Positions 2,408 to 14,682 of a stretch of 22,388 nt of DNA are shown here, piece after piece. The notes beneath the pieces were generated by a model that had not been told where the DNA came from, made no database searches, and worked only from the letters and a program-made list of their open reading frames with translations. The position numbers and the translations under genes are program-made. The stretch spans positions 1-22,388 of the IMG/VR virus record IMGVR_UViG_3300033993_001478; one strand, written 5' to 3'. Source of the DNA: a virus. Positions within the stretch are counted from its first letter, which is position 1. Every line of letters starts with the position of its first letter.

Positions 2408-4521
2408 TAGTTTGCCCCCAAATAAGAGATTTTGGCATCAACAAAGTTAAAATGATCTTTGCCGATCTCTGAAATGTAGAGAACAAATGACCTCTCATTG
2501 CCCCTGTTTTCTATCCATCCACCTGCTACCAAATCGCCAATGATGCCGCCAATGGACTCCTTAGAACCTGCCACGCCATCCTGAACCATTCGGCGGGTGC
2601 TGCCAGGGTGATTGTGGATGAACTCAGCTACCTCTTTGAGTTTCTTAAATTCCTTATTGGCCTCGGCTTCATCTTCCCTAAGTGGTACGCCAATGACATA
2701 TTCCATTTGCTGGCGAGTTGAGTCAATGGTGAAGATAGCCGCATCCTGCATACGATCTTTGCCCTTTTGTGGCCCCGCCTTGCTGCGCACATCGCCAATT
2801 CGATCTTTAGTCACTCGCAGGGCAATGGTGCCGATCTTGCCGGGGGCTAACAATTCGATTGGCTCGCATAGGTAGGCAGCTCCATCAATCGTTGCCAACT
2901 TACTTTGCCCGCCGATGGCAAACCGCCCGCGTGTTTCTGCGTTCTTTGTAATGTGGTCAATCAGCACAACGGCTGCGCCTGAGGCTTTTGACACCGTTCT
3001 TGGAAATACTCGCATCCAACGGGTGATTTCGTCATTGTCTTTAGTCTGCCCGCCCCACATTGTCAGGGCTTCGGTTACGCCATCAATAATGACTAAATCC
3101 GACCTGTTAGGTTCAAGAATATCTTGCCAATATGGGTCATTTACATCTCTTGGGCCGTCAGGTCGAATATAGGAGAAGTATTGCAAGAGGTTGGCGCGAC
3201 TCACGCCTAAGGTTTTGAGGCGGTTTACAATGTCAATTGGGTCAGATTCAAAGTCAATATAGATGACTTTCTTATCAATCTTTAACAGTTCAGCGGTAGC
3301 AATTTGAGCAATCCAAGACTTTCCCGACTCAGATTCACCATAAAATGAGTGAACCTTGCCAGGATAAATCAACCCTGCGCCGTCACTTCGCTTTAAGATT
3401 GTGGCTGTCGGCATTTGAAATAAGCCATCAAAGTAATCCTTTAGGGCGATTGGCTTCCAACTTGACTCATCATCGCTTAAATCGGCGGTGGTGACTTGTG
3501 AAGGGGCTTCAATGGCATTTGTTGCCAATAAATTATTGGTAGGTTGTAGCTCTTTGAGTTCTGTTGCCCCGTAGCCAAGATTTCTTAATTGTAAGGCAGC
3601 CTGCTTGAAATCCCCATTGGTGTTCAGGTGAGCGTAAGCGGCAAACTTTGAATAGGAACTTTCAGCTTCAAAGATAGTTGAGGTTGAGAAAACAAAGAGT
3701 TTGTCATTGCCGTTGAAATTGGTGGTAGCAGAGATTCCTTCGTTCTTATTCGGTCTGCGCCAAACTGTTGCCTCACCTTTTTGATAAACCTTTGACCAAC
3801 CAAGGGGCAGCAAGATTTCATCCCAAGTGGTGCGGGCGTTGTAATCATCGCCAGGGCTTAGAGTGCCATCGTGCTTGGCAACTACATCTGCCTGAATAAC
3901 TTGCGCTTTTGGCATCTCATCAAACATTGCAAAGATTTGGTGCAATGCTGCTCTTTCCTGCATCGTGATCTTTGGGATTGACTCAATTGAACCGCCGATT
4001 AGTGTCCAATTGCCACCGTTGGGGTGAGTCAAACCGCCTGATGGCGCGGTGATTGTGAACCCGCCTTCGCTTCGCGTTTCGGCAAACACATCCACGCCGC
4101 CGTTTTCGCCAGGCTTTCGCGCTAACTTAGTGTTGCCAGGGATTTCTCCATCAATTACTCGGTAGAGCCAATGTAATCCGCCTGATGGTGTTATCTCAAC
4201 ATATCCCGCATTTAGGCGCTGCCAAAGTTCGCCTAAGCCTGAGTTGTTGGCAATCTCAGCAATATCAAGGTGCATCTTTTGTGATACTGCTCGACCTTCA
4301 AGCTCTAGCATCTCAAGGTTGCCTGATACCTTGCCCGTGATTACACCGATGCCATCAACATCGTGCTTAAACCAAAGCAATAACTCATCGGCAGTTGGCA
4401 GTTGCTCTTGGTATTTCTGCCAAGATAGGGCAGGGCGCTTGCTTCCGTCATTTGCGACAGGAACAACGCTAATGCCTTCAGCTAAAAAGCGAAGTGCGGT
4501 GGTTAGGGTTGCGTTATTCAT
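2407..4521 (-). CDS. Bifunctional DNA primase/polymerase with RepA/DnaB-like ATPase
   Basis: 704-residue replication protein. Residues about 5-200 form a prim-pol domain: acidic pair in LEMLELEG (about 70-76), SGGLHWLYR (113-121, the family's conserved SGGxH), and DVFAETRSEGGF. Residues about 385-560 are a RecA/RepA-fold ATPase with Walker A GESESGKS (395-402), Walker B DLVIID (475-480) and a DH sensor pair (522-523). The C-terminus looks like a winged helix. Families of this architecture prime and extend DNA and unwind the fork, so this is the phage's main replication enzyme. The first polymerase acidic pair is E-x-E instead of the more usual D-x-D, which may affect metal binding. The start overlaps the end of the Mom-like gene by 8 nt, indicating translational coupling. 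Confidence 0.92.
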   Translation of the reverse strand: MNNATLTTALRFLAEGISVVPVANDGSKRPALSWQKYQEQLPTADELLLWFKHDVDGIGVITGKVSGNLEMLELEGRAVSQKMHLDIAEIANNSGLGELWQRLNAGYVEITPSGGLHWLYRVIDGEIPGNTKLARKPGENGGVDVFAETRSEGGFTITAPSGGLTHPNGGNWTLIGGSIESIPKITMQERAALHQIFAMFDEMPKAQVIQADVVAKHDGTLSPGDDYNARTTWDEILLPLGWSKVYQKGEATVWRRPNKNEGISATTNFNGNDKLFVFSTSTIFEAESSYSKFAAYAHLNTNGDFKQAALQLRNLGYGATELKELQPTNNLLATNAIEAPSQVTTADLSDDESSWKPIALKDYFDGLFQMPTATILKRSDGAGLIYPGKVHSFYGESESGKSWIAQIATAELLKIDKKVIYIDFESDPIDIVNRLKTLGVSRANLLQYFSYIRPDGPRDVNDPYWQDILEPNRSDLVIIDGVTEALTMWGGQTKDNDEITRWMRVFPRTVSKASGAAVVLIDHITKNAETRGRFAIGGQSKLATIDGAAYLCEPIELLAPGKIGTIALRVTKDRIGDVRSKAGPQKGKDRMQDAAIFTIDSTRQQMEYVIGVPLREDEAEANKEFKKLKEVAEFIHNHPGSTRRMVQDGVAGSKESIGGIIGDLVAGGWIENRGNERSFVLYISEIGKDHFNFVDAKISYLGAN

Positions 4522-5101
4522 CTAGTGCCCCCTTTGGATACGGCAAAACCTGGTAACGCAATTTTTCTAATAATTCTAATTTTCGTTTCCCCCTGGCATT
4601 GAAATAAATGTAACGATGCTTTCTTGAGCGTTCCTTGAAGTAAACATTATCTTTGCCAAATTTCTCAACTACTTGTTTATTGGTCAAACCGTTGGCATAG
4701 GTTGCGTGGTGCTGATTCTCTAAACCTTTGACCTTTGGGTCAAGAAACTTGGCGCTTAACCCCGTGTAAATGAAATTAGTTGCCTGGTAAACAACTCCAA
4801 TGTGAGCTTGAGAGCTGTCAGCGTAAGAAACAATGATTTCCCTATCTAATCGCTTAATTGTTCTGCCAATTAGGTAACTTTCACCGTTTTTTGGGATTGA
4901 ATCATCAACCCATAAGCGGTTTAGTTCATAAACATTGAACTTTTCGCTTTCTCCGCAAATACCTTTTAGCAATGTTGAACTTGGGCTTACGCCGTAAGTT
5001 ACAACGCCAACTGGCATCAAACTTGAATAATTGAACAACCCAAAAGCAAAACTAACAGGGCATTTTCGGTGCAGATAGTGTTTTTCAACAACAATATCCA
5101 T
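4514..5101 (-). CDS. mom: Mom-like DNA modification acyltransferase
   Basis: Member of the phage Mu Mom family, GNAT-fold enzymes that hypermodify adenine in phage DNA and protect it from restriction. The signature is clear: YELNRLWVDD (about 58-67), an SYLIGR block, VSYADSSQ (about 91-98, with the conserved Y-A-D) and VYQATNFIYTG (104-114). From the ATG at 5101 it is 195 residues; TTG at 5107 is an alternative, and neither has a good Shine-Dalgarno. Conserved family sequence (EPISYSLA) continues just upstream, so a non-canonical start between 5107 and 5138 is possible. The open frame extends to 5293, but that part lies over a tRNA-like gene and another small gene. With the nearby methyltransferase it suggests layered DNA modification. 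Confidence 0.85.
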   Translation of the reverse strand: MDIVVEKHYLHRKCPVSFAFGLFNYSSLMPVGVVTYGVSPSSTLLKGICGESEKFNVYELNRLWVDDSIPKNGESYLIGRTIKRLDREIIVSYADSSQAHIGVVYQATNFIYTGLSAKFLDPKVKGLENQHHATYANGLTNKQVVEKFGKDNVYFKERSRKHRYIYFNARGKRKLELLEKLRYQVLPYPKGALDE

Positions 5102-5138
5102 TGCCAAGCTGTAAGAAATTGGCTCAATCCAATAATTT

Positions 5139-5214
5139 TGGAGCGATGAGGTCGGAATTGAACCGCCATTTGCAGGTTGGAATACCTGCCGTGTTTCCAT
5201 TACACCATCACCGC
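5139..5214 (-). tRNA. tRNA-Gly (anticodon UCC), atypical
   Basis: 76-nt cloverleaf on the minus strand. The acceptor stem GCGGTGA pairs with TCATCGC (one G-T), the D-stem is GTGT/ACAC with a GG-containing loop, the anticodon stem is GCAGG/CCTGC, the T-loop is TTCAATT, and CCA is encoded after discriminator T. The anticodon reads UCC (glycine, GGA codons). Two deviations stand out: the anticodon loop has 8 nt (TATTCCAA) rather than 7, and the T-stem GGCGG pairs with CCG-A-CC only if the A bulges. It may therefore be a frameshift-type, heavily modified or decaying tRNA. It lies between two protein genes with about 20 nt or more on each side. Confidence 0.72.
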
Positions 5215-5234
5215 AAGTTGCCAACATTATCCTT

Positions 5235-5372
5235 TTACCATTCCAGTGCCATCCAAAAGATGCCAAAGTCAATTGATAGTGTCCATTTATCAATTACAAA
5301 TCCCAAGCCAAAACCTTTCCGCGTTCCAAACGCTAAATAAAAACCATCGCTGATTTTGATTTCTTTTACCAT
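5235..5372 (-). CDS. Small aromatic-rich protein, 45 aa, unknown
   Basis: Unrecognised 45-residue protein rich in Gly and aromatics (FYLAFGTRKGFGLGFVIDKW; ends IFWMALEW). Its ATG shares one base with the stop of the zinc-ribbon gene (TAATG), and it ends about 20 nt before the tRNA. The composition suggests a beta-structured or membrane-associated small protein rather than a classical transmembrane helix. The other frame over the same DNA is the false extension of the Mom-like gene. No function can be assigned. Confidence 0.6.
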   Translation of the reverse strand: MVKEIKISDGFYLAFGTRKGFGLGFVIDKWTLSIDFGIFWMALEW

Positions 5373-5542: not shown

Positions 5543-5669
5543 GGTAGCCTTCTTTCTTTAATATAGCAACGATCACCTTCGCCATTCGCCAGGGCGTATC
5601 AGGCAAAGATTCTTCATAAGATTTCCAAAGCGCAAAGGCGATGGCACCCTCAAGGCTATCGCGGCTCAA
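5529..5669 (-). CDS. Small basic/helical protein, 46 aa, unknown
   Basis: Unrecognised 46-residue protein (MSRDSLEGAIAFALW start; ends ILKKEGYLANH). The TTG start overlaps the end of the methyltransferase by 14 nt and the stop lies inside the next small gene. The pattern of two amphipathic helices around DTPWRMAKVIVAILKKEGY resembles a small winged-helix-like or partner protein, but nothing diagnostic is visible. Coding is supported by tight packing and sensible composition. Confidence 0.55.
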   Translation of the reverse strand: MSRDSLEGAIAFALWKSYEESLPDTPWRMAKVIVAILKKEGYLANH

Positions 5670-6981
5670 AGTCTAACTCGCCTTCTTTATCTTTAAGGGC
5701 AAATTCAATCCGCGCCTTAGCAATTGGCAAGTATTCGGGAGTTAGCTCAATTCCAACAAAGTTAAATCCTTCATACATCGCAGCTTTGCCGGTCGAACCT
5801 GAACCAAGGAACGGGTCAAGCACAATGCCATTTGGCGGTGTTACAAGGCGCACTAGGTACTGCATCAGCGTTGTTGGTTTAACGGTTGGGTGATAATTTT
5901 GTTTTATCGGGTTGCGATCTTTGAACATTCCTTCACCCGCGTTGCCTAACCCGTGATCATATCCATAACCACTTGAACGCTTAACCTCAAACCCATCAAG
6001 CCCCTCATTGCGATCTTTCTTGCTTGCCTTCGCGCAATAAAAGAATCGGGCGGCGCTGCCGCTGTCATTGAAACCTAATCGCACTTCAGGAAAAGTTGTT
6101 GCAGATTTATTGAGTGCATTTCCGCCATAAACATTTACATTTGCACCACTCTTTTGCGTTGCCATTCCCTTGCTATCAGGAAACAAAGCCACAACCTCAT
6201 CGCTGCCATCGTGAATGAAGTTGGCAGGGAAGCGGCCTGTTGCTTGCGACATTTCACCATTGCGACCTTCGCCTGTTCCAAATCCATAAGTCACGCGCTC
6301 TTTGACACCTAATGATGGTTGCGGAACTGATGGGGGTACGCCTTCAATCCGCGACCCGTCAATGTTCAACCCGCCAGTGCCAAAGGTCAAAACATTATTG
6401 GCAACGGTGCCAATCAACGGCTTACGCGCTAGAACCATTGGTTCGTGCGCGGGCTTGAGTGCGGTGCCCCAGCCTTGCCATTGCTTCGCGGCGGCGGTTG
6501 CGGGGGCGGTGATGTTTATTTCATTTGTACCTGAACCGAAATCAGTTCCACCTTCACCATTTTCAATTCCTGAAACTTTGCCACTCATTGCTGCGCCTGT
6601 GATTCGAGTGCCAACAACCTCACGCACCGCACCCGCTTGCTTATCAATCGCCTTGCTTACATCGTGCGACTTAGGAAATCCTGACCCGTAAACCCACATA
6701 ATCTGATCACGAATTTCAAAGCCCGCATCTTCAATCGCAACTGCCATTCGGTGATAAGTGCGCGACCCTGAAAAGGCAATTAAGTGACCGCCGGGCTTTA
6801 GAACACGCAACGCCTCTTGCCAAACTTCCACATTAAAAGCAATGCCTGATGAATCCCAACTCTTACCCATAAAACCAAGCTCATAAGGTGGGTCGGTGAC
6901 GATGGAATCAATTGAATCAGCTTCCATTGTTTTCATTACCTCAAGGCAGTTGCCTTCAAATAAATTAAAGCGTTCGTTCAC
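5656..6981 (-). CDS. DNA methyltransferase, beta class (N6-adenine or N4-cytosine)
   Basis: 441-residue SAM-dependent DNA methyltransferase. Motif IV DPPY is at 30-33, followed by a specificity region containing VYGSGFPKS, then HPTVKP (364-369) and the SAM-binding motif I DPFLGSGST (389-397). The order IV, target recognition, X/I is that of beta-class enzymes methylating adenine-N6 or cytosine-N4. No restriction endonuclease partner is adjacent, so it is probably an orphan phage methylase shielding the genome or adjusting regulation. Start: the GTG at 6981 is preceded by GGGGGAG at about 4 nt and the protein starts at the conserved FNLFEGNCLEVM. The longer frame to 7029 lies over a tRNA-like structure. 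Confidence 0.92.
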   Translation of the reverse strand: MNERFNLFEGNCLEVMKTMEADSIDSIVTDPPYELGFMGKSWDSSGIAFNVEVWQEALRVLKPGGHLIAFSGSRTYHRMAVAIEDAGFEIRDQIMWVYGSGFPKSHDVSKAIDKQAGAVREVVGTRITGAAMSGKVSGIENGEGGTDFGSGTNEINITAPATAAAKQWQGWGTALKPAHEPMVLARKPLIGTVANNVLTFGTGGLNIDGSRIEGVPPSVPQPSLGVKERVTYGFGTGEGRNGEMSQATGRFPANFIHDGSDEVVALFPDSKGMATQKSGANVNVYGGNALNKSATTFPEVRLGFNDSGSAARFFYCAKASKKDRNEGLDGFEVKRSSGYGYDHGLGNAGEGMFKDRNPIKQNYHPTVKPTTLMQYLVRLVTPPNGIVLDPFLGSGSTGKAAMYEGFNFVGIELTPEYLPIAKARIEFALKDKEGELDFEPR

Positions 6982-7005
6982 ATTCTCCCCCTTTGTTTTG
7001 TAGCC

Positions 7006-7070
7006 GTGAAATGGTTGGAATCGAACCAACTGAAGGCGCTTCCCCCCGCCAACGCAAACCTGCCATTTCG
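7006..7070 (-). other. tRNA-like remnant
   Basis: The 125-nt gap before the methyltransferase holds a perfect T-arm on the minus strand (GTTGG-TTCGATT-CCAAC, 7030-7014) followed by CATTTCA, which pairs with CGAAATG (7070-7064) at 6 of 7 positions, as an acceptor stem would. A GGCG/CGCC stem sits where the anticodon arm should be, but the loop (GGGGGAAG) has no U33 and the D-arm region is only about 13 nt. It is probably a degenerate tRNA or tRNA mimic. The gap also has a 10-bp direct repeat CCCCGCCAAC (7044-7053, 7073-7082). Confidence 0.4.
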
Positions 7071-7106: not shown

Positions 7107-7553
7107 CTATTGCTTTTGTGCGCCTAATTGTGCCAAGAGTGCAGCAACTTCAGGTGTAATTCCTGCGGGTGAATCAACCACCGCAGGGGCAGGGGTATTC
7201 GCCCCGCCAATAAAGGCATTTGCCTTAGCTACTGCCGCGACATCGCCTGTTGCATCATTTAGAATCCAAGGCGCAGACTTACCTGGCTTGGCAACGCCTT
7301 GCCCGATGCGAGCTAGAACTTTTTGCCCAACCTTTGCCTTGAGTGCGTTCTTTAGTGCGACATTGAAGAACAAAACATTGTTATAGGTTTTGTTATTGTC
7401 AAGATCAACAAGATTGACTTCAATTGCATCGGTTTCGCCGTGAACTGTTTGGATTCCAACTTTGTATTCAATTGGTTCGATGATTAGTAAAGCTCCCGCA
7501 AGGTCAGCAACTTTGACACTTTCGGTGGAACTGCTTGGTGCGCTGAATGTCAT
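7107..7553 (-). CDS. Putative single-stranded-DNA-binding-like (OB-fold) protein
   Basis: 148-residue protein with a beta-rich core (LAGALLIIEPIEYKVGIQT, then IEVNLVDLDN, NVLFFNVALKNAL, GQKVLARIGQGVAKPGKSAPWIL) and an Ala/Pro-rich flexible tail ending in AALLAQLGAQKQ. Proteins with this pattern (lead-in G.LLI..P, then QG.AKPG..APW.L) recur in actinophage replication clusters as OB-fold, SSB-like proteins. I recognise the pattern but cannot confirm DNA binding. It lies between the Cas4-like nuclease and the methyltransferase, consistent with a recombination role. The ATG overlaps the stop of the preceding 50-codon gene. Confidence 0.65.
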   Translation of the reverse strand: MTFSAPSSSTESVKVADLAGALLIIEPIEYKVGIQTVHGETDAIEVNLVDLDNNKTYNNVLFFNVALKNALKAKVGQKVLARIGQGVAKPGKSAPWILNDATGDVAAVAKANAFIGGANTPAPAVVDSPAGITPEVAALLAQLGAQKQ

Positions 7554-7702
7554 TTGACATCCCCCGTTTCTGTTTGGGTGTTACTTTGGTTTTGTTGGTT
7601 TTCCAACTCTATTGGTGGCTGAAGTTCAGCCAGTTCTTTCGCTATGTCATTGATTGTTTTTGCGGGAATCCCGCAGGCGCAACCATCGGTGCAGCACATC
7701 AT
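7550..7702 (-). CDS. Small Cys-rich protein, 50 aa, unknown
   Basis: Unrecognised 50-residue protein beginning MMCCTDGCAC, four Cys within ten residues, followed by an acidic, Gln/Asn-rich tail. It is linked by ATGA overlaps both to the nuclease upstream and to the OB-like protein downstream, which strongly suggests translation. The Cys cluster could bind a metal or iron-sulfur cluster. No family recognised. Confidence 0.6.
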   Translation of the reverse strand: MMCCTDGCACGIPAKTINDIAKELAELQPPIELENQQNQSNTQTETGDVK

Positions 7703-8442
7703 TTGGCTTCCGTATCTCCATTACAGGCAACCGATAAATCGGTGCTGAATGGTCTGAAGTAGGGGCAATAATTACAATTCCGCGATGGCACCGCAGGAAT
7801 AACTGCCCACATCGTAGGTGACTTCTCAACATCAACTGTTGAAAGTAATTCATAAACATTATCTAGCCGTTGGAGTGCGCCTATGGCAATTTGCTCATCG
7901 TAAGGGTGAAGTTCCAAATACATATCCGATATTTGACCGCCCGTTGGGAGAAAGGCAAGCCCAACTTGCTTAACTTCGTGACCCTCTTGCGCCTTGCCAT
8001 AGGCGTACAACATAACCTGAATTATCTGTTGTTGGCTCGCACCGCTATTGCGCTTCTCCTTCACATTAGCGGGTGAGGTTGTTTTCCAATCAATGACAAT
8101 TCCGTTTTCCTTATCGTAGAGATCAACTGTCCCGGCAAGATTGACACGAATCTTAACCTTGCTCTCGACCTCAAAGCGATCAGGAAACTTTGCAAAGATG
8201 CCCTCTAAGTGAGAATGAATAGCAGTTCCAACTTGAGCTGCCCAATTGCCCCCACTTGATTCATTCACCTTTTCCCAATCAAGTAATTTATAGGCTAACT
8301 TGCGGGTACATTCTTGCCCCACTTCACTAGGGCCAATGTAAACCTGCTGCGAACGGGGCGAGAAAATACCCGCTTGCGTAATAATCTCGCCCAATTCGAT
8401 TGCAAGCGCCTTACTTGGAGTGTTCAAAGGTGAAAAGGTCAT
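7699..8442 (-). CDS. Cas4/RecB-like Fe-S exonuclease
   Basis: 247-residue PD-(D/E)XK nuclease. Catalytic features: H76 in the GTAIHSHLE motif, D107 (GTVDLYD), D118-x-K120 (IDWKT) and Q142..Y146 (QxxxY). Four cysteines, C45 and C223/C226/C240, are placed as in the 4Fe-4S Cas4/AddB-type nucleases. Such phage enzymes resect DNA ends for recombination or recombination-dependent replication. The protein following in the operon upstream resembles a helper domain of phage exonucleases, and a resolvase is nearby, so this forms a recombination module. There are no CRISPR genes around it, so a CRISPR role is not indicated. Confidence 0.87.
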   Translation of the reverse strand: MTFSPLNTPSKALAIELGEIITQAGIFSPRSQQVYIGPSEVGQECTRKLAYKLLDWEKVNESSGGNWAAQVGTAIHSHLEGIFAKFPDRFEVESKVKIRVNLAGTVDLYDKENGIVIDWKTTSPANVKEKRNSGASQQQIIQVMLYAYGKAQEGHEVKQVGLAFLPTGGQISDMYLELHPYDEQIAIGALQRLDNVYELLSTVDVEKSPTMWAVIPAVPSRNCNYCPYFRPFSTDLSVACNGDTEAK

Positions 8443-8445
8443 CGC

Positions 8446-8763
8446 TTATTCATCATCTCTAACAACGGTGAATCGGCGGGTAGTTGAAACTACTTCAAGC
8501 AAATCAATTACTTGAGCAGGCAGGATTTCTCGCGCCCGCTTGGTATCAAATCGCTTTGATTCAACAACCGACCATCTGACAACAGGGCGATTGCCAAACA
8601 TTCCAACCTGAGAATCGCCAAGGGCAGATTCTAAGTGTGAACGGGCAATGTCAGCTACCTCTTGCCATTCCTTAATCTTTGCCAACGCTGACTTGTATTG
8701 CTCAAGCCACGCATTTGCATCGGCATCAAAATCAACGATGCCTTTTTCTATTTCAACGGTCAC
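8446..8763 (-). CDS. Nuclease-associated helical protein
   Basis: About 105 residues. The helical segment (AWLEQYKSALAKIKEWQEVADIARSHL) followed by a small beta unit (ALGDSQVGMFGNRPVVRWSV) and a C-terminal FDTKRAREILPA helix resembles the C-terminal extension of YqaJ-type phage exonucleases, here as a separate protein next to the Cas4-like nuclease. A helper or DNA-binding role is inferred from this. An ATG at 8790 exists but lacks a Shine-Dalgarno; GTG 8763 has GGGGG 5-6 nt upstream and is preferred. Confidence 0.65.
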   Translation of the reverse strand: MTVEIEKGIVDFDADANAWLEQYKSALAKIKEWQEVADIARSHLESALGDSQVGMFGNRPVVRWSVVESKRFDTKRAREILPAQVIDLLEVVSTTRRFTVVRDDE

Positions 8764-8780
8764 TTTAACCCCCAAAGTTT

Positions 8781-9167
8781 TTAGTACCATCTTTTTTGTT
8801 TGAAATGTTGCCAGGCAGCGCAGGGGCCACCTGAACCATATTTTCTGCCGATGTAAGCAAGGGCAGCAACGGTTTGGGCTACTTCGGATTTACTCCGCTT
8901 CATCCCAAGGTTTTTAATAGTTGAATCTAACAACTGGCCCACCCCTTCGGCTGAGCTGTGAGGATTCTTTTTGTTCATCCACGCGCTTTCTTTGCCCATA
9001 AGCAAACTAAAACACCTGAAATCTTTTTTGGTAAGTAACTCGCGGGCGAGTTCCTTATGATCAACCTGCATCAGAATCGGGCGTTCTTTGTAAATGACCA
9101 ATTCAGGAATGGCAGGTGTTGGATTTATTGCTTGAACCAATAGTGAAGTCACCGTGCTAACCACCAA
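8781..9167 (-). CDS. Lytic transglycosylase-like muralytic protein
   Basis: Compact lysozyme-fold/transglycosylase domain of about 75 residues: FSLLMGKESAW (catalytic-type Glu about residue 60), SSAEGVGQLLDST, a helix QTVAALAYIGRKYGS and a final AWQHF. This fits goose-lysozyme/SLT cleavage of peptidoglycan. The N-terminus is hydrophobic (VVSTVTSLLVQA). The shown start, TTG 9167, truncates a signal-peptide-like segment: the frame stays open upstream with KRVINRIALILVV. An ATC codon at 9212 with AAGGAG 7 nt before it would give a complete signal peptide (143 residues). Placement in the early operon, far from the endolysin, is odd: it may modify the envelope rather than lyse it. Confidence 0.75.
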   Translation of the reverse strand: MVVSTVTSLLVQAINPTPAIPELVIYKERPILMQVDHKELARELLTKKDFRCFSLLMGKESAWMNKKNPHSSAEGVGQLLDSTIKNLGMKRSKSEVAQTVAALAYIGRKYGSGGPCAAWQHFKQKRWY

Positions 9168-9619
9168 GATAAGGGCGATTCGGTTGATGACTCTTTTTGT
9201 GTTTGGTTTGATTGGATTGCTCCTTCTCTAGCCGCCATTTCAACTTGAGACGCAATTTTGTAAACATATTGCGATGAACACTCAAGGGTGATGGCGATTT
9301 CGTTGGCGCTTTTGTTCTCAGATAACATTTGGCGAATTAACATCGCTTTATTTGTCAGCTTAATCTTTCGACCTCTACGGTTGATTGATCGGCGTTGGTC
9401 TGCGGTGTAACCGCCCCAAAATCCGTAAACAATGCGTTTGTCAAGTGCGTACTCCAAACATTCCTCTCTATGGATACAACTCCCGCAGATTTGCTTGAGT
9501 CGGGGCAGGCGTTCTGCCTCATCACGCTTATTGTCCGGAAAGAAATAATCTTTATCGTCAATTTGCGCACATTTGGCTTCGGTAAACTTTGGGGAATCGC
9601 TGAATATGTCAAAGTTCAT
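9149..9619 (-). CDS. WhiB-family regulator fused to a C-terminal HTH
   Basis: 156-residue WhiB-like iron-sulfur protein. Four cluster cysteines lie at C17, C45, C48 and C54 in the canonical C-xn-CxxC-x5-C arrangement, followed by the turn GFWGG (66-70) and a basic RRGRK tail. These are restricted to actinobacteria and their phages and act with sigma factors or DNA. Unusually, a further segment (about 90-126; SANEIAITLECSSQYVYKIAS) looks like a helix-turn-helix. ATG 9619 overlaps the resolvase stop; the AAGGAG next to it is too close, GGAA further upstream is the likely binding site. The 3' end overlaps the transglycosylase frame. Confidence 0.88.
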   Translation of the reverse strand: MNFDIFSDSPKFTEAKCAQIDDKDYFFPDNKRDEAERLPRLKQICGSCIHREECLEYALDKRIVYGFWGGYTADQRRSINRRGRKIKLTNKAMLIRQMLSENKSANEIAITLECSSQYVYKIASQVEMAAREGAIQSNQTQKESSTESPLSWWLAR

Positions 9620-9969
9620 CTCCTTGTTCCGTAGCCTGCTTCTCGAAGTAAATTGGTGATTTGTTCTAGCGACATAATCGCCCACCAATTCGCGGTGTTG
9701 GTGACACCAACGCCGTTAGGTTTTACAACCAAAACGCCAAAGTCTGCTTTAGCGTTTTTGGTTTCCAACTCGGTTTCTTTTAACCAAGCAGGAATCTTAT
9801 ATGTTTTGTGATTCTTAACTTCCCAAGCCAAGGCAGGGGTGCCTGTTATATCGCCAAGATCAAGTGCGCCATTTAGCGCCCTTCTTTCGGCATATGGAAA
9901 ACCGTTATCAATTAAGAATTTGACAACGGCAGTTTCCGCTGAGGTTCCCTTTGCTTTGGCTTTGGACAT
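9616..9969 (-). CDS. Hjc-like Holliday junction resolvase / PD-(D/E)XK nuclease
   Basis: 117-residue small nuclease. It begins AKGTSAETAVVKFL (conserved basic start and Glu12), followed by ALDLGDITG (Asp37 and Asp40), WEVKNHK (Glu50-x-Lys52, the catalytic pair) and a stable C-terminal domain. This is the layout of archaeal-Hjc-like and phage resolvases. It would cut branched DNA during recombination, complementing the Cas4-like nuclease. Its ATG overlaps the stop of the 27-codon gene by one base. Confidence 0.8.
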   Translation of the reverse strand: MSKAKAKGTSAETAVVKFLIDNGFPYAERRALNGALDLGDITGTPALAWEVKNHKTYKIPAWLKETELETKNAKADFGVLVVKPNGVGVTNTANWWAIMSLEQITNLLREAGYGTRR

Positions 9970-10052
9970 TAAATCTCGCCATCGTTATCAGCAAAAATGC
10001 CGACAATCGAAATGATGCTAATAATAATTACAACTAGAGCTAACCAAAACAT
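9969..10052 (-). CDS. Tiny membrane peptide, 27 aa
   Basis: 27-residue peptide consisting of one hydrophobic helix (FWLALVVIIISIISIVGIFA) and an acidic end (DNDGEI). AAGGAAA precedes its ATG by about 10 nt and the stop overlaps the resolvase start (TAATG). Probably inserts in the inner membrane. It may be a regulatory or superinfection-type peptide; the sequence says nothing more. Confidence 0.55.
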   Translation of the reverse strand: MFWLALVVIIISIISIVGIFADNDGEI

Positions 10053-10120: not shown

Positions 10121-10693
10121 CTAACGGCTAAATTGAATCTCAACCTGAAATGGTGCGCCTGTGTTTACATCAAACTTAGCTGAGAGTTCAAGGGCAGATT
10201 TGATGGCGTTGGTGGCGGTGTCAATGTTCATTGTTTCGCCTACTGCTTCGCCGTAAACATCTGCCATTGAAGTCAGATAGCCAAGGGCGTACGCGCTACC
10301 CGACCCGATGCCGTAGGTGAAATCTATTGATTGCGAAATGCCTAAATCATTGCCAATTTCAAAGATATTGCCATTGAAGGCAAGCAAGTAGGCAAAGCTC
10401 ACGCCTTCTTTTTGGTAATCGTAGCCATTGTCTTTGAACGCCTTGATAATGCTTGGAATCACCTTTCGACCCATAAACCCAACAGGGTCGGTGCCATCGT
10501 AGGCAGGCGGTTTCCAATTATACATAAGCACATCGCCGGGGCGGCAATCTCCGCAGACCCCCAAAAGGTACTTGCCAACCTTGACGATTTTGGGCGTTGA
10601 AGGCGAAATGATGCGTTTGTCACCATCGGTGATTTGGCTGTCAGCTCCAAGGATGGCAAAGCCTTTGCCCTGGTAGCCTGCAATCGTGGTCAT
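10121..10693 (-). CDS. Proteasome/HslV-like N-terminal threonine peptidase
   Basis: 190-residue Ntn hydrolase of the proteasome beta/HslV fold. Met1 is followed directly by Thr2 (MTTIAGYQG), so removal of Met exposes the nucleophile without a propeptide, as in HslV. The other catalytic positions are present: Asp18 (GADSQ, = D17), Lys35 (PKIVKV, = K33), GSGS at 130-133 (S129 region) and KFD with D175 (= D166). Expected to form rings that degrade proteins, but no ATPase (HslU, Mpa) or alpha subunit is visible here, so the partner may be a host one. First gene of the minus-strand operon, possibly translated from a leaderless mRNA. It may instead serve in prohead maturation or protein turnover. 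Confidence 0.85.
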   Translation of the reverse strand: MTTIAGYQGKGFAILGADSQITDGDKRIISPSTPKIVKVGKYLLGVCGDCRPGDVLMYNWKPPAYDGTDPVGFMGRKVIPSIIKAFKDNGYDYQKEGVSFAYLLAFNGNIFEIGNDLGISQSIDFTYGIGSGSAYALGYLTSMADVYGEAVGETMNIDTATNAIKSALELSAKFDVNTGAPFQVEIQFSR

Positions 10694-10700
10694 AGGGGCA

Positions 10701-10706
10701 ATTCTA
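10701..10706 (-). promoter_or_regulatory. -10 box for a probably leaderless mRNA
   Basis: TAGAAT on the minus strand matches the -10 consensus at five of six positions and ends 7 nt before the ATG at 10693, so transcription would start at or near the A of the start codon. No Shine-Dalgarno precedes this ATG. Leaderless mRNAs are frequent in actinobacteria. No clear -35 box is seen. Confidence 0.45.
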
Positions 10707-10796: not shown

Positions 10797-10826
10797 TTGA
10801 CACTATGTATAGACAGGTGCTAGATT
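10797..10826 (+). promoter_or_regulatory. Plus-strand promoter of the small-gene island
   Basis: Consensus TTGACA (10797-10802), an 18-nt spacer and TAGATT (10821-10826), 45 nt before the first ATG of the island. The -35 region sits in the palindrome GTGTC-TT-GACAC (10792-10803) and next to ACACTATGTATAGACAGG (10800-10817), which recurs on the minus strand at 1125-1109. A hairpin TTGGAAA/TTTCCAA (10834-10856) follows in the leader. Confidence 0.6.
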
Positions 10827-10870: not shown

Positions 10871-11077
10871 ATGAATCTCTTTCAAATCAATCGTGGCAAG
10901 TTCATTAGCACAAATGAAGAATTCCGCATTGAATACTTTATTTACAAAGGTGGCAAGTCAGAGTGGGTAATTTCTCGCAAGAATAATGACGGAAAGTATT
11001 TTTCAGCAGTAGCAGGCGCACCAACACTTGCAGATGCAAAAGCAAAGTATTTTGAAATTGTTAAGGCGGTTGCATAA
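10871..11077 (+). CDS. Small protein, 68 aa, unknown
   Basis: Unrecognised 68-residue protein starting MNLFQINRGKF. It looks like a beta sheet (FRIEYFIYKGG, EWVISRK, KYFSAVAG) followed by one helix (TLADAKAKYFEIVKAV). The frame is open upstream to 10634, over the promoter and the peptidase gene, so that extension is rejected; ATG 10871 has GGAAAAG before it. First gene of the plus-strand island. The stop overlaps the next ATG by one base. Confidence 0.75.
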   Translation: MNLFQINRGKFISTNEEFRIEYFIYKGGKSEWVISRKNNDGKYFSAVAGAPTLADAKAKYFEIVKAVA

Positions 11078-11442
11078 TGACAAAGCTATCAGGAACATTT
11101 TTAGCAGATTGGGAACCTGCTTCCGAAACTTTATATTCGGAAGCAGAACAAGGCGTTGCAGATATTGCTTACATTGCTTTAATTAACAAAATTGATAATG
11201 CTCCAAAAACAAAAAGCGGCAAATTTGGTTTTGTTGTTTCAGTTGAACTTACCGAATACGAAATTGAATTACTAAGAAATGAGGCTAAGTATCGAATGGA
11301 ATTTTGGTCACTTATTTATCAAGACTACAAATCAGATATTGATAAAAATGCTCATAAAGCAGCTAAGAAATTATTTCTTGAACTTGGCGGTGTCATTACA
11401 CAAAAGATGGCAGATCAAATGGGAATTAAGGTGGTTGCATAA
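11077..11442 (+). CDS. Hypothetical protein, 121 aa
   Basis: Unrecognised 121-residue protein. The C-terminal half is strongly helical and charged (IELLRNEAKYRMEFW, KNAHKAAKKLFLELGG); the N-terminal half is mixed. The DNA is visibly richer in A/T than the flanking operons. One-base overlaps with both neighbours indicate a co-translated unit. An interaction role is possible; no known motif. Confidence 0.75.
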   Translation: MTKLSGTFLADWEPASETLYSEAEQGVADIAYIALINKIDNAPKTKSGKFGFVVSVELTEYEIELLRNEAKYRMEFWSLIYQDYKSDIDKNAHKAAKKLFLELGGVITQKMADQMGIKVVA

Positions 11443-11684
11443 TGTTGCACTATTGCACTTGCCTAACTTGCGGCTCTAAGTTTGATGCCGTTGCCAAATT
11501 ACACGAATGTTTCAATTGCTACGAAATAAGAATGGGGTGGAAAGAAATGACTATTTACTACTGTGTGTTTTGCGATAACAAGGTTGGCAATGAGAAAGTC
11601 TGCCTGAACTGTAACGAATATAAAGGCGTTGTCACCGAAGCTGAGTTCAATCAATTCCAACTAGATTATCCGCGTGCAATATGA
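11442..11684 (+). CDS. Tandem zinc-ribbon protein, 80 aa
   Basis: 80-residue protein with eight Cys in two equivalent sets: C7-x2-C10...C23-x2-C26 and C41-x2-C44...C54-x2-C57, apparently a duplicated zinc ribbon. An internal ATG before the second ribbon (residue 36, after GGAAAGAA) could yield a separate single-ribbon protein. Function unknown, but zinc ribbons often bind nucleic acid or protein. Stop and next start share ATGA. Confidence 0.72.
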   Translation: MLHYCTCLTCGSKFDAVAKLHECFNCYEIRMGWKEMTIYYCVFCDNKVGNEKVCLNCNEYKGVVTEAEFNQFQLDYPRAI

Positions 11685-11866
11685 GCGCAATGAAATCGCT
11701 TTACCTTGACCTAACAACAGGCGTTGCCGAAATCAATCAAACTCTTGAGCAGGCATTTGACCTACAAAACGCCACCTTTGAAACAATAGATTTGGCACTT
11801 TGCCAATCAATCATCAATCTAGTTGAGATGCGAAATATGTTAAAAGAAATGGGAGCAGTAAAATGA
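11681..11866 (+). CDS. Small helical protein, 61 aa, unknown
   Basis: Unrecognised 61-residue, largely helical protein (VAEINQTLEQAFDLQ and SIINLVEMRNMLKEMG look amphipathic). Starts and ends in ATGA overlaps with its neighbours. It could form a helical hairpin or dimer. No family recognised. Confidence 0.68.
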   Translation: MSAMKSLYLDLTTGVAEINQTLEQAFDLQNATFETIDLALCQSIINLVEMRNMLKEMGAVK

Positions 11867-12202: not shown

Positions 12203-13063
12203 CTAAATCTGAAAACTTCGAGCAATTCCTTCTTCAAGCGAAATCTTTGGCGTAAACACTTTGAGCATATTAGTTGGCTCGCCAACTCGGAACATTACAC
12301 CAACAGGCTTGGTTTCATCGGTAACAATCGGCACCCGATGCCCGCTAATATCCATCATCATCTCAGCAAGTTCAATAAAACTCACGGGAACGCCTGAACA
12401 AAGGTTCATAACTTGAACATCATTTTGCGCAGCTACTAAACTGCCCTCAACCACATCGTCAATATGAATGAAATCTCGAACCTGTTTGCCGCTGCCCCAA
12501 ATCTTAAACTCTTTTTCTTGGTTCCAACAACGGCTGACAAATGACGGGAAAGGGTAATCTAAATCTTGGTCTTGACCATAGCCACTAAACGGGCGCAAGA
12601 TAGTGACCTTCAAACCCTCGCGCCTTGCGTACATTGCCAACATCTCACCCGATAATTTTGCCCAACCGTAGCTGAAATCGGGGGTGCGGATTTGGCTTAA
12701 ATCAATGTCTTTTTCTTCCAACATAATTGGCATTTCACCTGTCTGTAAGTAAACAGGATAAGCAGCCGATGAAGAATAATAAATGATTCTGTTCGGGCGG
12801 GTTCTAAGCGCCCATTGAAAGAGATCACTATCAATGGCAAGGTCGGTGGCAACTGCCAAGGGATTACCTTCGATGGTGGCTCTGCCGCCGACTACTGCCG
12901 CAAGGTGAATAACAAGGTCAAAGTGTGTGTCATCTTTAGCAAAGAAATCGCGGGCATCAATGCCGTTGGCAATGTCAATTCCCGTTATATCGTGTTGATC
13001 GCCAAAGGCGCGGTGATAAGCGCGACCTACAAAACCCGCGTTGCCGGTAATCAGAATCTTCAT
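12203..13063 (-). CDS. NAD-dependent sugar-nucleotide epimerase/dehydratase
   Basis: 286-residue extended short-chain dehydrogenase. Rossmann motif GNAGFVG (7-13), a Ser cluster YYSSSAAYP (95-103) holding the catalytic Ser/Thr, Y132-x3-K136, and a substrate domain with RDFIHIDDVV typical of NDP-sugar enzymes. It probably acts on a nucleotide sugar such as GDP- or UDP-linked hexose. Last gene of the late operon, following a glycosyltransferase with a 4-nt overlap, so the two likely make and transfer one sugar, perhaps to virion, phage DNA or the host envelope. Confidence 0.9.
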   Translation of the reverse strand: MKILITGNAGFVGRAYHRAFGDQHDITGIDIANGIDARDFFAKDDTHFDLVIHLAAVVGGRATIEGNPLAVATDLAIDSDLFQWALRTRPNRIIYYSSSAAYPVYLQTGEMPIMLEEKDIDLSQIRTPDFSYGWAKLSGEMLAMYARREGLKVTILRPFSGYGQDQDLDYPFPSFVSRCWNQEKEFKIWGSGKQVRDFIHIDDVVEGSLVAAQNDVQVMNLCSGVPVSFIELAEMMMDISGHRVPIVTDETKPVGVMFRVGEPTNMLKVFTPKISLEEGIARSFQI

Positions 13064-13725
13064 CTAAGCGCCTCAAGAAGTTGCTTATACATAAAAGAAT
13101 TGATGAAGTTGTTGAAAGCATCTCTGTCTGCGGTGTAAACCTCAGCGGCATTAACGGTTTTGTAACCTTCATCCATCTCAGCTTTACCAATTAGCGGATG
13201 GCAATGCTCAATAATGATTTCAGGGCAATAGGTAATCTTGCCCAAATCAGTTCCAAGGCGTAGCCAAAAATTGTCAAGATAAAGGTGGCGCATATTAGGC
13301 GGCACCATCCCGCCAAGGGCGGTGACAATATCCGAAGTCATTGCAATCATTGTTGGTAAGCTCTGACCTTGGAAAAGGTCATTGCCGTAGGCAAGGGCAG
13401 GCGCATCTTGAAGTTTGCTGATCAACTTATCATCCCATTTGTGGGTTCGCGGTCTGTGATCATCGCCCATAAAACAAAGGTATTTGTAATGCTCGGCGTA
13501 TTGTTTCGCCACTTCATTCAGCGGGAAAGCCATCCCGCGAGTGGTGTTTTCAATTAAAATGTAATCAATATCGGTGGCATCGTAGCCCGCAAATTCAAGG
13601 TCATCTTTATCAATGACAAATAACAAATCGGCAGTTGCTTGGGTGTCATTAAAGGCATCGCGCAACGCCTGCGCATTATGAGGCCGCCCGCGTGTGGGAA
13701 CTATAACAAGAAGTTTATCCTTCAC
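13060..13725 (-). CDS. GT-A type glycosyltransferase (family 2-like)
   Basis: 221-residue protein with the opening VIVPTRGRP, a strand ILIEN, then CFMGDDHRP (DDH at 88-90 as the metal/nucleotide-sugar site) and an acidic HLYLDNFWLRLG segment, consistent with a GT-A glycosyltransferase. The frame opens further upstream to 13800 but that lies over the DUF6378 gene; GTG 13725 overlaps that gene's end and gives a start at the conserved strand. Acceptor unknown; the pairing with the epimerase suggests a dedicated sugar modification. Confidence 0.8.
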   Translation of the reverse strand: MKDKLLVIVPTRGRPHNAQALRDAFNDTQATADLLFVIDKDDLEFAGYDATDIDYILIENTTRGMAFPLNEVAKQYAEHYKYLCFMGDDHRPRTHKWDDKLISKLQDAPALAYGNDLFQGQSLPTMIAMTSDIVTALGGMVPPNMRHLYLDNFWLRLGTDLGKITYCPEIIIEHCHPLIGKAEMDEGYKTVNAAEVYTADRDAFNNFINSFMYKQLLEALR

Positions 13726-13984
13726 GATGGGCAATCTCGCCTGCAATGGCAAAGTAGGCAGCGCCATCAATAAAGGAATCAAGATGATCAGGTGACTCAA
13801 TCAACCTGGCAACCTTGACCAATGCCAACATAATCGCGGCTTGGGAAGGTGTAATCTCAGATTCAAGATACACCGACCACAAAGCCGCGATTCGTTGATG
13901 ATTTGTTAGCGGATCACCGTAGTTTTTATTTCGATCACCGTGAGTAAGGCGTGAAGCCTCTTTAAGAATATCCCCCCGAAGCAT
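13715..13984 (-). CDS. DUF6378-type phage protein
   Basis: 89-residue helical protein with the pattern ILKEASRLTHGDRNKNYGDP..NHQRIAALWSVYL, then ITPSQAAIMLALVKVARL and DSFIDGAAYFAIAGEIA. This conserved HGDRNxxYGDP...DxxxDxAxYxA block is common in phages and grouped as DUF6378, sometimes linked to MazG-like/all-alpha pyrophosphohydrolase folds. Actual activity is unproven. Confidence 0.8.
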   Translation of the reverse strand: MLRGDILKEASRLTHGDRNKNYGDPLTNHQRIAALWSVYLESEITPSQAAIMLALVKVARLIESPDHLDSFIDGAAYFAIAGEIAHREG

Positions 13985-13987
13985 TGA

Positions 13988-14182
13988 TTACTTAGAACCT
14001 TTGCCGAATTCTGATGCCTTTGGGTCAAGTGCTTTCAATACAGGGCCAGCAACTGCTGCCAAACCTGCGACAAAATAAGTCTTTAGTGGTTGATCAGGGC
14101 TTGCAAGGTATAGGGCAATAATTGATGCCGCAGCAGCTCGCAAATATGTTTTAACAATTGCTTCGAATTGAACCTTGTTCAT
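13988..14182 (-). CDS. Holin-like membrane protein
   Basis: 64 residues with two hydrophobic stretches (AAAASIIALYLA and YFVAGLAAVAGPVL) joined by a short polar loop, then a charged tail (DPKASEFGKGSK). It follows directly on the endolysin (shared bases at 14182). Size, topology and location fit a phage holin opening the membrane for the CHAP endolysin. Confidence 0.78.
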   Translation of the reverse strand: MNKVQFEAIVKTYLRAAAASIIALYLASPDQPLKTYFVAGLAAVAGPVLKALDPKASEFGKGSK

Positions 14183-14682
14183 TATGACTCCTTAAAGGTT
14201 GGCTTGCCGAATCCTACAATGTGAACCGGCAAAGAGGGTTTCAACTTGCCCCGATTCTTCTTCTTATATGCTCGCACCTTTTCGCAAACTTGACCACCAT
14301 TGCGCTGATCGCCTTTTTTGTCGGGTGCGGTGTTGCCTTCAATTGTGGTGACGGTTCCATCAGCATTGACCTTAGTTACAATCCCAATATGTGAAATGCG
14401 GTCAATTCCATCGTGCGGGAAATCAAAGAACACGCAATCGCCAATTTCAGGTGTAGCTGACTCGGCATCTTGCCATTTATTGTTCTTTTGAAAGGCGGTT
14501 GCCCCTGCAAGTGTTGAAACACAATTAGGGATTTTCACGCCTACTTCTTTGAACACCCAATTAACAAAAGCACCGCACCAAGGTTGGTTTGTCTTTTGAT
14601 ACTTAGTTTGATTCTCTTTCGGGCCTTCAATCAGCCCTAATTCAGCCTTGGCTGTTTCTACGATTTGGTTTCTTTGGTTCAT
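14182..14682 (-). CDS. CHAP-domain endolysin
   Basis: 166-residue cysteine amidase/peptidase: C36 in PWCGAFVNWVF, His98 in ISHIGIV, and EGNT (115-118) completing the active site. The N-terminal helix (QIVETAKAELGLIEGP) is typical of CHAP enzymes. No separate cell-wall-binding domain is visible, so it is a single-domain lysin with a basic C-terminus (KKKNRGKLKP). Sits between a membrane protein and the holin-like gene. Confidence 0.9.
   Translation of the reverse strand: MNQRNQIVETAKAELGLIEGPKENQTKYQKTNQPWCGAFVNWVFKEVGVKIPNCVSTLAGATAFQKNNKWQDAESATPEIGDCVFFDFPHDGIDRISHIGIVTKVNADGTVTTIEGNTAPDKKGDQRNGGQVCEKVRAYKKKNRGKLKPSLPVHIVGFGKPTFKES

Follow-up and report, generated by a model that had tools for sequence, protein, structure and literature searches.

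Proteasome-like enzymes in phages are already known, and a further one is thus not a new kind of finding: two phage proteasome homologues, PPH and AAH, were described in 2021 (PMC8665760). In that survey, Fuchs et al. reported no AAA+ partners co-occurring with the new homologues and found the gene context to be uninformative. Regarding Actinobacteria, they were unable to find AAH in any phage specific to this phylum, their Table 1 does not list HslV for it, and some actinobacteria carry proteasome-like proteins (PMC8665760). A further point of reference is BPH, for which mass spectrometry showed that the Met is removed (PMC5777263). BPH has an intact Thr1 that can be labelled by epoxomicin, yet it showed no activity towards standard peptides or casein (PMC5777263). 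An intact active site is therefore no proof of general peptidase activity.

Identity and active site of the gene

In the following, the window denotes the whole stretch of 22,388 nucleotides that was analysed, taken from IMG/VR record IMGVR_UViG_3300033993_001478. A first-pass annotation had proposed a proteasome/HslV-like threonine protease at 10121-10693. These coordinates do hold an open reading frame, and its strand is the minus strand: the ATG lies at 10693, the stop ends at 10121, and 190 codons encode a protein of 190 aa, for simplicity called the protease.

10121..10693, minus strand: predicted threonine peptidase of the HslV superfamily, probably AAH-like (Pfam, PHROG, AlphaFold, residue conservation)

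Pfam Proteasome (PF00227) matches residues 1-45 of the protease with 31 bits, above the curated cut-off of 22.4, and the PHROG 1040 profile ("peptidase HslV family") spans residues 1-186 (E=6.4e-24). Using tblastn, full-length relatives were detected in isolated phages with E values down to 1e-24. The gene is real and intact, and these matches are above chance. An AlphaFold2 model, built as a monomer from 33 viral sequences, showed the expected strands and four helices (pLDDT 88.9, pTM 0.86). When this model was used for fold searches, BPH (E 5e-11, TM 0.71-0.74) and HslV were the best matches in the PDB, and phage proteins either named HslV or unnamed were returned from BFVD. Altogether, sequence and fold predict that this phage gene encodes a threonine peptidase of the proteasome/HslV superfamily.

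Alignment to HslV and BPH pointed to Thr2, Asp18, Lys35, Gly48, Ser131, Asp175 and Thr178 as the catalytic or supporting positions. In detail, Thr2 is equivalent to Thr1 after Met removal, Asp18 to Asp17, Lys35 to Lys33 (with one extra residue) and Gly48 to Gly47; GSGS is found at residues 130-133, and Asp175/Thr178 correspond to Asp166/Ser169. Thus, all of the equivalents initially proposed (Thr1, Asp17, Lys33, GSGS and Asp166) could be located. The proposed absence of a propeptide was also borne out: the Thr is residue 2, right after Met, so that loss of Met alone exposes the catalytic Thr.

These positions are strictly maintained. Thr2, Asp18, Lys35, Gly48, Asp175 and Thr178 were unchanged in 88 of 88 distinct viral proteins (~35-99% identity), and the position of Ser131 was occupied by Ser in 79 and by Thr in 9 of them. 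These counts were taken from alignment columns and agree with three further alignments (A1-A3). Additionally, dN/dS among close relatives was 0.02-0.15, synonymous change being far in excess of non-synonymous change; the protease is under purifying selection. Homologues lacking Thr2, Asp18 or Lys35 had been named beforehand as an argument against the annotation. As none occurs among the 88 proteins and dN/dS is low, the annotation stands in this respect. In the AlphaFold model, the pore loop (approximately residues 60-69, about 10 residues) lies between the first two helices and is followed by helix H2 (residues 70-88). A W-x-P-P motif in this loop is nearly invariant in the 88-protein alignment.

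Placement within the proteasome family

The superfamily part of the initial assignment was upheld by Pfam, PHROG and fold, whereas membership of HslV or 20S beta proper was not, as judged by curated cut-offs. In the case of HslV, the NCBIfam equivalog models NF003964 and TIGR03692 gave 15.4 of 137 bits and 12.8 of 157.75 bits, respectively. An adjoining HslU is absent, and no AAA_2 match was found in any of 24 phage records, i.e. the window and 23 related ones. HslV and the protease have in common the superfamily, the fold and Thr1/Asp17/Lys33, but the protease lacks the DWRTDR stretch common to the two HslV sequences compared. In the case of 20S beta, the archaeal beta model scored far below its cut-off, there is no propeptide, and one homologue per record was found, with no alpha subunit. 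PPH shares with the protease that it is phage-encoded, belongs to group I and has no known ATPase partner. However, PPH has ~140 aa and no H2, whereas the protease has 190 aa and H2 is present; size and helices therefore rule out PPH as defined in PMC8665760.

BPH and HslV are the closest solved sequences. The active site of BPH (Thr1, Asp17, Lys37, Gly50, Ser139) aligned with the Thr/Asp/Lys/Gly/Ser of the protease, and also in BPH only Met is removed and no ATPase is known. The two differ in the pore loop, which is long and acidic in BPH and of ~10 residues in the protease, and identity is ~20%. In the terms of Fuchs et al., we lean towards placing the protease on the HslV/BPH/AAH side, i.e. 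group I, with an N-terminal Thr nucleophile.

Within this group, "AAH-like" (Fuchs 2021) is probably the best label, set against AAH by means of its description and of proxy homologues. According to the AlphaFold model and the description in PMC8665760, the protease is a compact group I subunit with H1-H4 present and without S12/C-terminal H5, which is the likeness to AAH. The profile of the actinophage group gave 73-77 bits for the Rhizobium and Paraburkholderia homologues, 27 bits for E. coli HslV and 23 bits for a phage protein of 152 aa, similar in size to PPH. In the same way, hhalign of the actinophage group against an alignment of Rhizobium, Paraburkholderia and phage sequences gave 99.8% (E 8e-29); against single sequences rather than alignments, the E values were 1e-7 (152-aa phage protein), 3e-7 (BPH) and 1e-4 (E. 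coli HslV). As the protease is far closer to these alpha/beta-proteobacterial homologues than to HslV or PPH, AAH-like fits best. A difference is that Fuchs et al. found no AAH in actinobacterial phages, whereas relatives of the protease are common in actinophages. The protease may also belong to CPH, another group I family.

In the tree, the actinophage proteins form a group of their own, separate from both HslV/BPH and the proteobacterial-phage group; support at the deep fork is weak. The phage records annotated as PHROG 1040 include those of Vibrio, Aeromonas, Geobacillus and Tenacibaculum phages. The actinophage branch differs by its own W-x-P-P loop and by G-D-x-R after the oxyanion Gly, where TSSFRM or the like is found in the proteobacterial-phage branch. 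Two observations can be added on these relatives. Aeromonas phage 2L372X (L056) carries two adjoining "peptidase HslV family" genes, possibly a paralogous pair. Rhizobium plasmid pCB3090_2 (L168, 1501-2046) encodes a homologue of 181 aa that shares the F/W-K-P-P loop; within the 3.4 kb examined, its neighbours are ordinary metabolic genes and not phage genes.

Operon context and distribution

The protease had been described as the first gene of its operon, a position supported by the order of genes as well as by a conserved -10-like box. The following features could be identified:

10797..10826, plus strand: divergent sigma-70-like promoter TTGACA-18-TAGATT with extended -10, facing a plus-strand cluster of small genes (10/12 matches)
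10701..10706, minus strand: putative -10-like TAGAAT box, conserved, ending 7 nt before the ATG of the protease
9969..10052, minus strand: small 27-aa ORF containing a single hydrophobic stretch (MFWLALVVIIISIISIVGIFADNDGEI; hydrophobicity assessed by eye)
9616..9969, minus strand: RusA-like Holliday junction resolvase, the next annotated gene of the operon (PHROG 244, E=2.7e-26)
9149..9619, minus strand: WhiB-like regulator, an actinophage marker (Pfam Whib, 55 bits)
8781..9167, minus strand: transglycosylase / aggregation-promoting-factor-like protein (PHROG and NCBIfam profiles)
8446..8790, minus strand: conserved protein of the block, phrog_1956, with a weak RecE-like match (PHROG)
7699..8442, minus strand: PD-(D/E)XK exonuclease (Pfam PDDEXK_1; PHROG 1674, E=5.4e-61)
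7107..7553, minus strand: conserved protein, phrog_870 (PHROG)

The 27-aa ORF sits between protease and RusA, is preceded by a Shine-Dalgarno-like GGAAAGGAAA and shares 1 nt with the RusA start. Most of the relatives checked likewise have such a small hydrophobic ORF. For WhiB, the MNFDIF ATG is the probable start; upstream of it there are stops in relatives. In relatives, the protease is followed by the small hydrophobic ORF, RusA (or a different nuclease-like gene), WhiB, the transglycosylase-like gene, phrog_1956, the exonuclease and phrog_870, and this order is kept down to ~60% protease identity. In the group with 47-50% identity, a relative of the exonuclease comes next, ~200 nt beyond the protease.

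A scan based on the exonuclease, thus without selection for the protease, gave 38 loci, of which 29 cover the protease site (counted by hand). The protease was present in 27 of these 29 contigs. The two contigs without it, L158 and L166, belong to the most diverged ones and have another gene at the site, from which it follows that the protease is not strictly essential to this type of phage. In these two regions (L158 1650-3950, L166 1900-5250), the other genes encode mutually related proteins of 130-140 aa (...RDSLFSVFASDSG and ...RENLFSLHLSSSGG).

Regarding promoter signals, 32 of 37 non-redundant upstream regions have a TANNNT box whose end lies 6 nt (22 regions) or 7 nt (10 regions) ahead of the start; at each other offset tested, such a box was found in 0-4 of the 37. 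Because 6-7 nt is a leaderless spacing, this suggests a leaderless protease transcript. In a consensus scan the TAGAAT box was not called as a full sigma-70 promoter, and for this reason the leaderless transcript is something that we infer. The same scan called 3 sigma-70 sites against 1.7 expected, so the divergent TTGACA-18-TAGATT site is weak. Behind it lies the small-gene cluster (10873-11866, plus strand), several members of which are kept in relatives, with 63-100% identity in the closest group.

Elsewhere in the window, a Mom-like gene for DNA modification (PHROG 1384) and a gene for an N6/N4 DNA methylase (4514-5293 and 5656-7029, minus strand) vary between close relatives; the two are likely anti-restriction genes. 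At 5139-5214 on the minus strand, inside the Mom-like ORF, ARAGORN called a 'tRNA-???' whose anticodon has two bases; this is probably a false positive. At 12203-13800 on the minus strand, an epimerase and glycosyltransferase pair is shared with some close relatives; other close relatives have no epimerase and a divergent glycosyltransferase (38-45%).

Relatives of the protease are widespread. A scan of IMG/VR with the single protein returned 42 loci, and a scan with the family pattern at least 556 relatives. Among phage records, tblastn gave 36 matches, some already named "peptidase HslV family", "protease" or "proteasome subunit". Relatives with 34% identity occur in LanE43-AprE7 and AprF5 (OX376640, OX376641), phages isolated on 'Ca. 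Planktophila' (PMC10202952). In the lake phage DSL-LC01 the relative adjoins WhiB, and in Arthrobacter and Microbacterium phages relatives are annotated as "protease". The G+C content is 45% for the window, 44.7-44.8% for E7/F5 and 46.5% for the host of E7/F5. Together with the WhiB gene, this makes a low-GC actinobacterium, probably lake-dwelling, the likely host.

In the case of bacteria, a genome scan with the tight family alignment found no relatives, a WhiB-core scan for a Nanopelagicales genome gave two unrelated MAG contigs only, and plasmid searches gave matches only from Paraburkholderia, Roseibium, Rhizobium and Enterobacter. Nothing useful was found in the literature on proteasomes in Planktophila/acI.

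Possible mode of action

An important question is whether the protease has a partner. The first-pass annotation had seen no ATPase or alpha subunit alongside it in the window, and AAA_2/AAA and proteasome profile searches agree: neither an AAA-family unfoldase nor a further subunit of proteasome type was found in the 22-kb window fragment, and the same holds for related actinophage contigs of 22-36 kb. Each record examined has one proteasome-like gene, hence no alpha subunit. Among the phage records, AAA-family matches were limited to the E7/F5-type records and those of the large phages DSL-LC01 and Pumpernickel. Of these, the match read in detail was that in the E7/F5-type (Planktophila phage) records, which was considered as an unfoldase and rejected, its Walker motif being RecA/DnaB-like.

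On balance, our preference is for an active, ATPase-independent and probably ring-forming threonine peptidase that acts early, for which we infer ring, activity and substrate. The operon promoter in front of the protease would give a leaderless transcript, as the conserved -10 box suggests. Next, host methionine aminopeptidase would strip Met1 and expose the catalytic Thr, similar to the Met removal seen in BPH (PMC5777263). Judging by the fold similarity to BPH and HslV, the subunits may form a homo-oligomeric ring with the active sites facing inward. This ring would admit peptides, unfolded chains or a few specific targets without ATP, an entry proposed because no unfoldase was found in related phages. 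The short pore loop with its W-x-P-P possibly selects targets, and the protease, together with the recombination and WhiB genes that share its operon, could remove or trim host or phage proteins early in infection. A more specific form of this proposal, in which an AAH-type ring protease is an early takeover enzyme of small actinophages that lacks an unfoldase and picks host proteins via the W-x-P-P loop, is tentative and rather doubtful.

Alternatively, the phage ring might dock on a host AAA+ unfoldase (ClpC, ClpX or proteasomal Mpa/ARC) and retarget it, which we regard as unlikely. The AAA_2/AAA searches, which found no unfoldase in the phages, are in its favor, and HslV activity depends on HslU. 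However, no docking feature was found in the protease sequence, docking of the 20S type uses an alpha ring that is absent here, and the same type of protein occurs in phages of very different hosts. As HslV is unlisted for Actinobacteria, HslU in particular is an unlikely partner. The first-pass annotation, too, had suggested that the protease could team up with the host proteasome or Clp machinery, and had named host defence or repressor proteins as possible targets.

Less probable still is a narrow processing enzyme or ligase, connectase-like in spirit, that acts on one or a few specific proteins by cutting or joining them instead of degrading many. The inertness of BPH on generic substrates and the nearly invariant pore-loop motif are consistent with such specificity, but connectase is without the first helix pair, which the protease has, and there is no known substrate motif. 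A role in virion maturation or lysis, as prohead or lysis protease, appears improbable: an endolysin-like CHAP gene (14182-14682) lies a few genes away, but the protease heads a replication/recombination block and not a head, tail or lysis module, and does so in relatives as well. Finally, an inactive decoy subunit poisoning a host proteasome-like ring, for which the proteasome-like proteins of some actinobacteria would offer a target, is hardly credible given catalytic residues that are invariant down to ~35% identity, unexpected for a decoy.

Returning to the ATPase-independent peptidase, we found no report in the literature on the function of any phage proteasome homologue, although these have been known since at least 2021. 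The actinophage branch supplies what had been lacking: its gene has a fixed position, heading a replication/recombination operon, nearly all members of one phage clade retain it, and the active site is strictly maintained. Culturable systems are at hand, namely two Planktophila phages with an isolated host, as well as Arthrobacter and Microbacterium phages with laboratory hosts. This combination of conserved context and culturable phages makes the role of phage proteasome homologues directly testable. If the AAH assignment holds, it fills the gap left by Fuchs et al., who had no actinobacterial phage with AAH, and the takeover reading, if true, would be the first function for this branch of the proteasome family.
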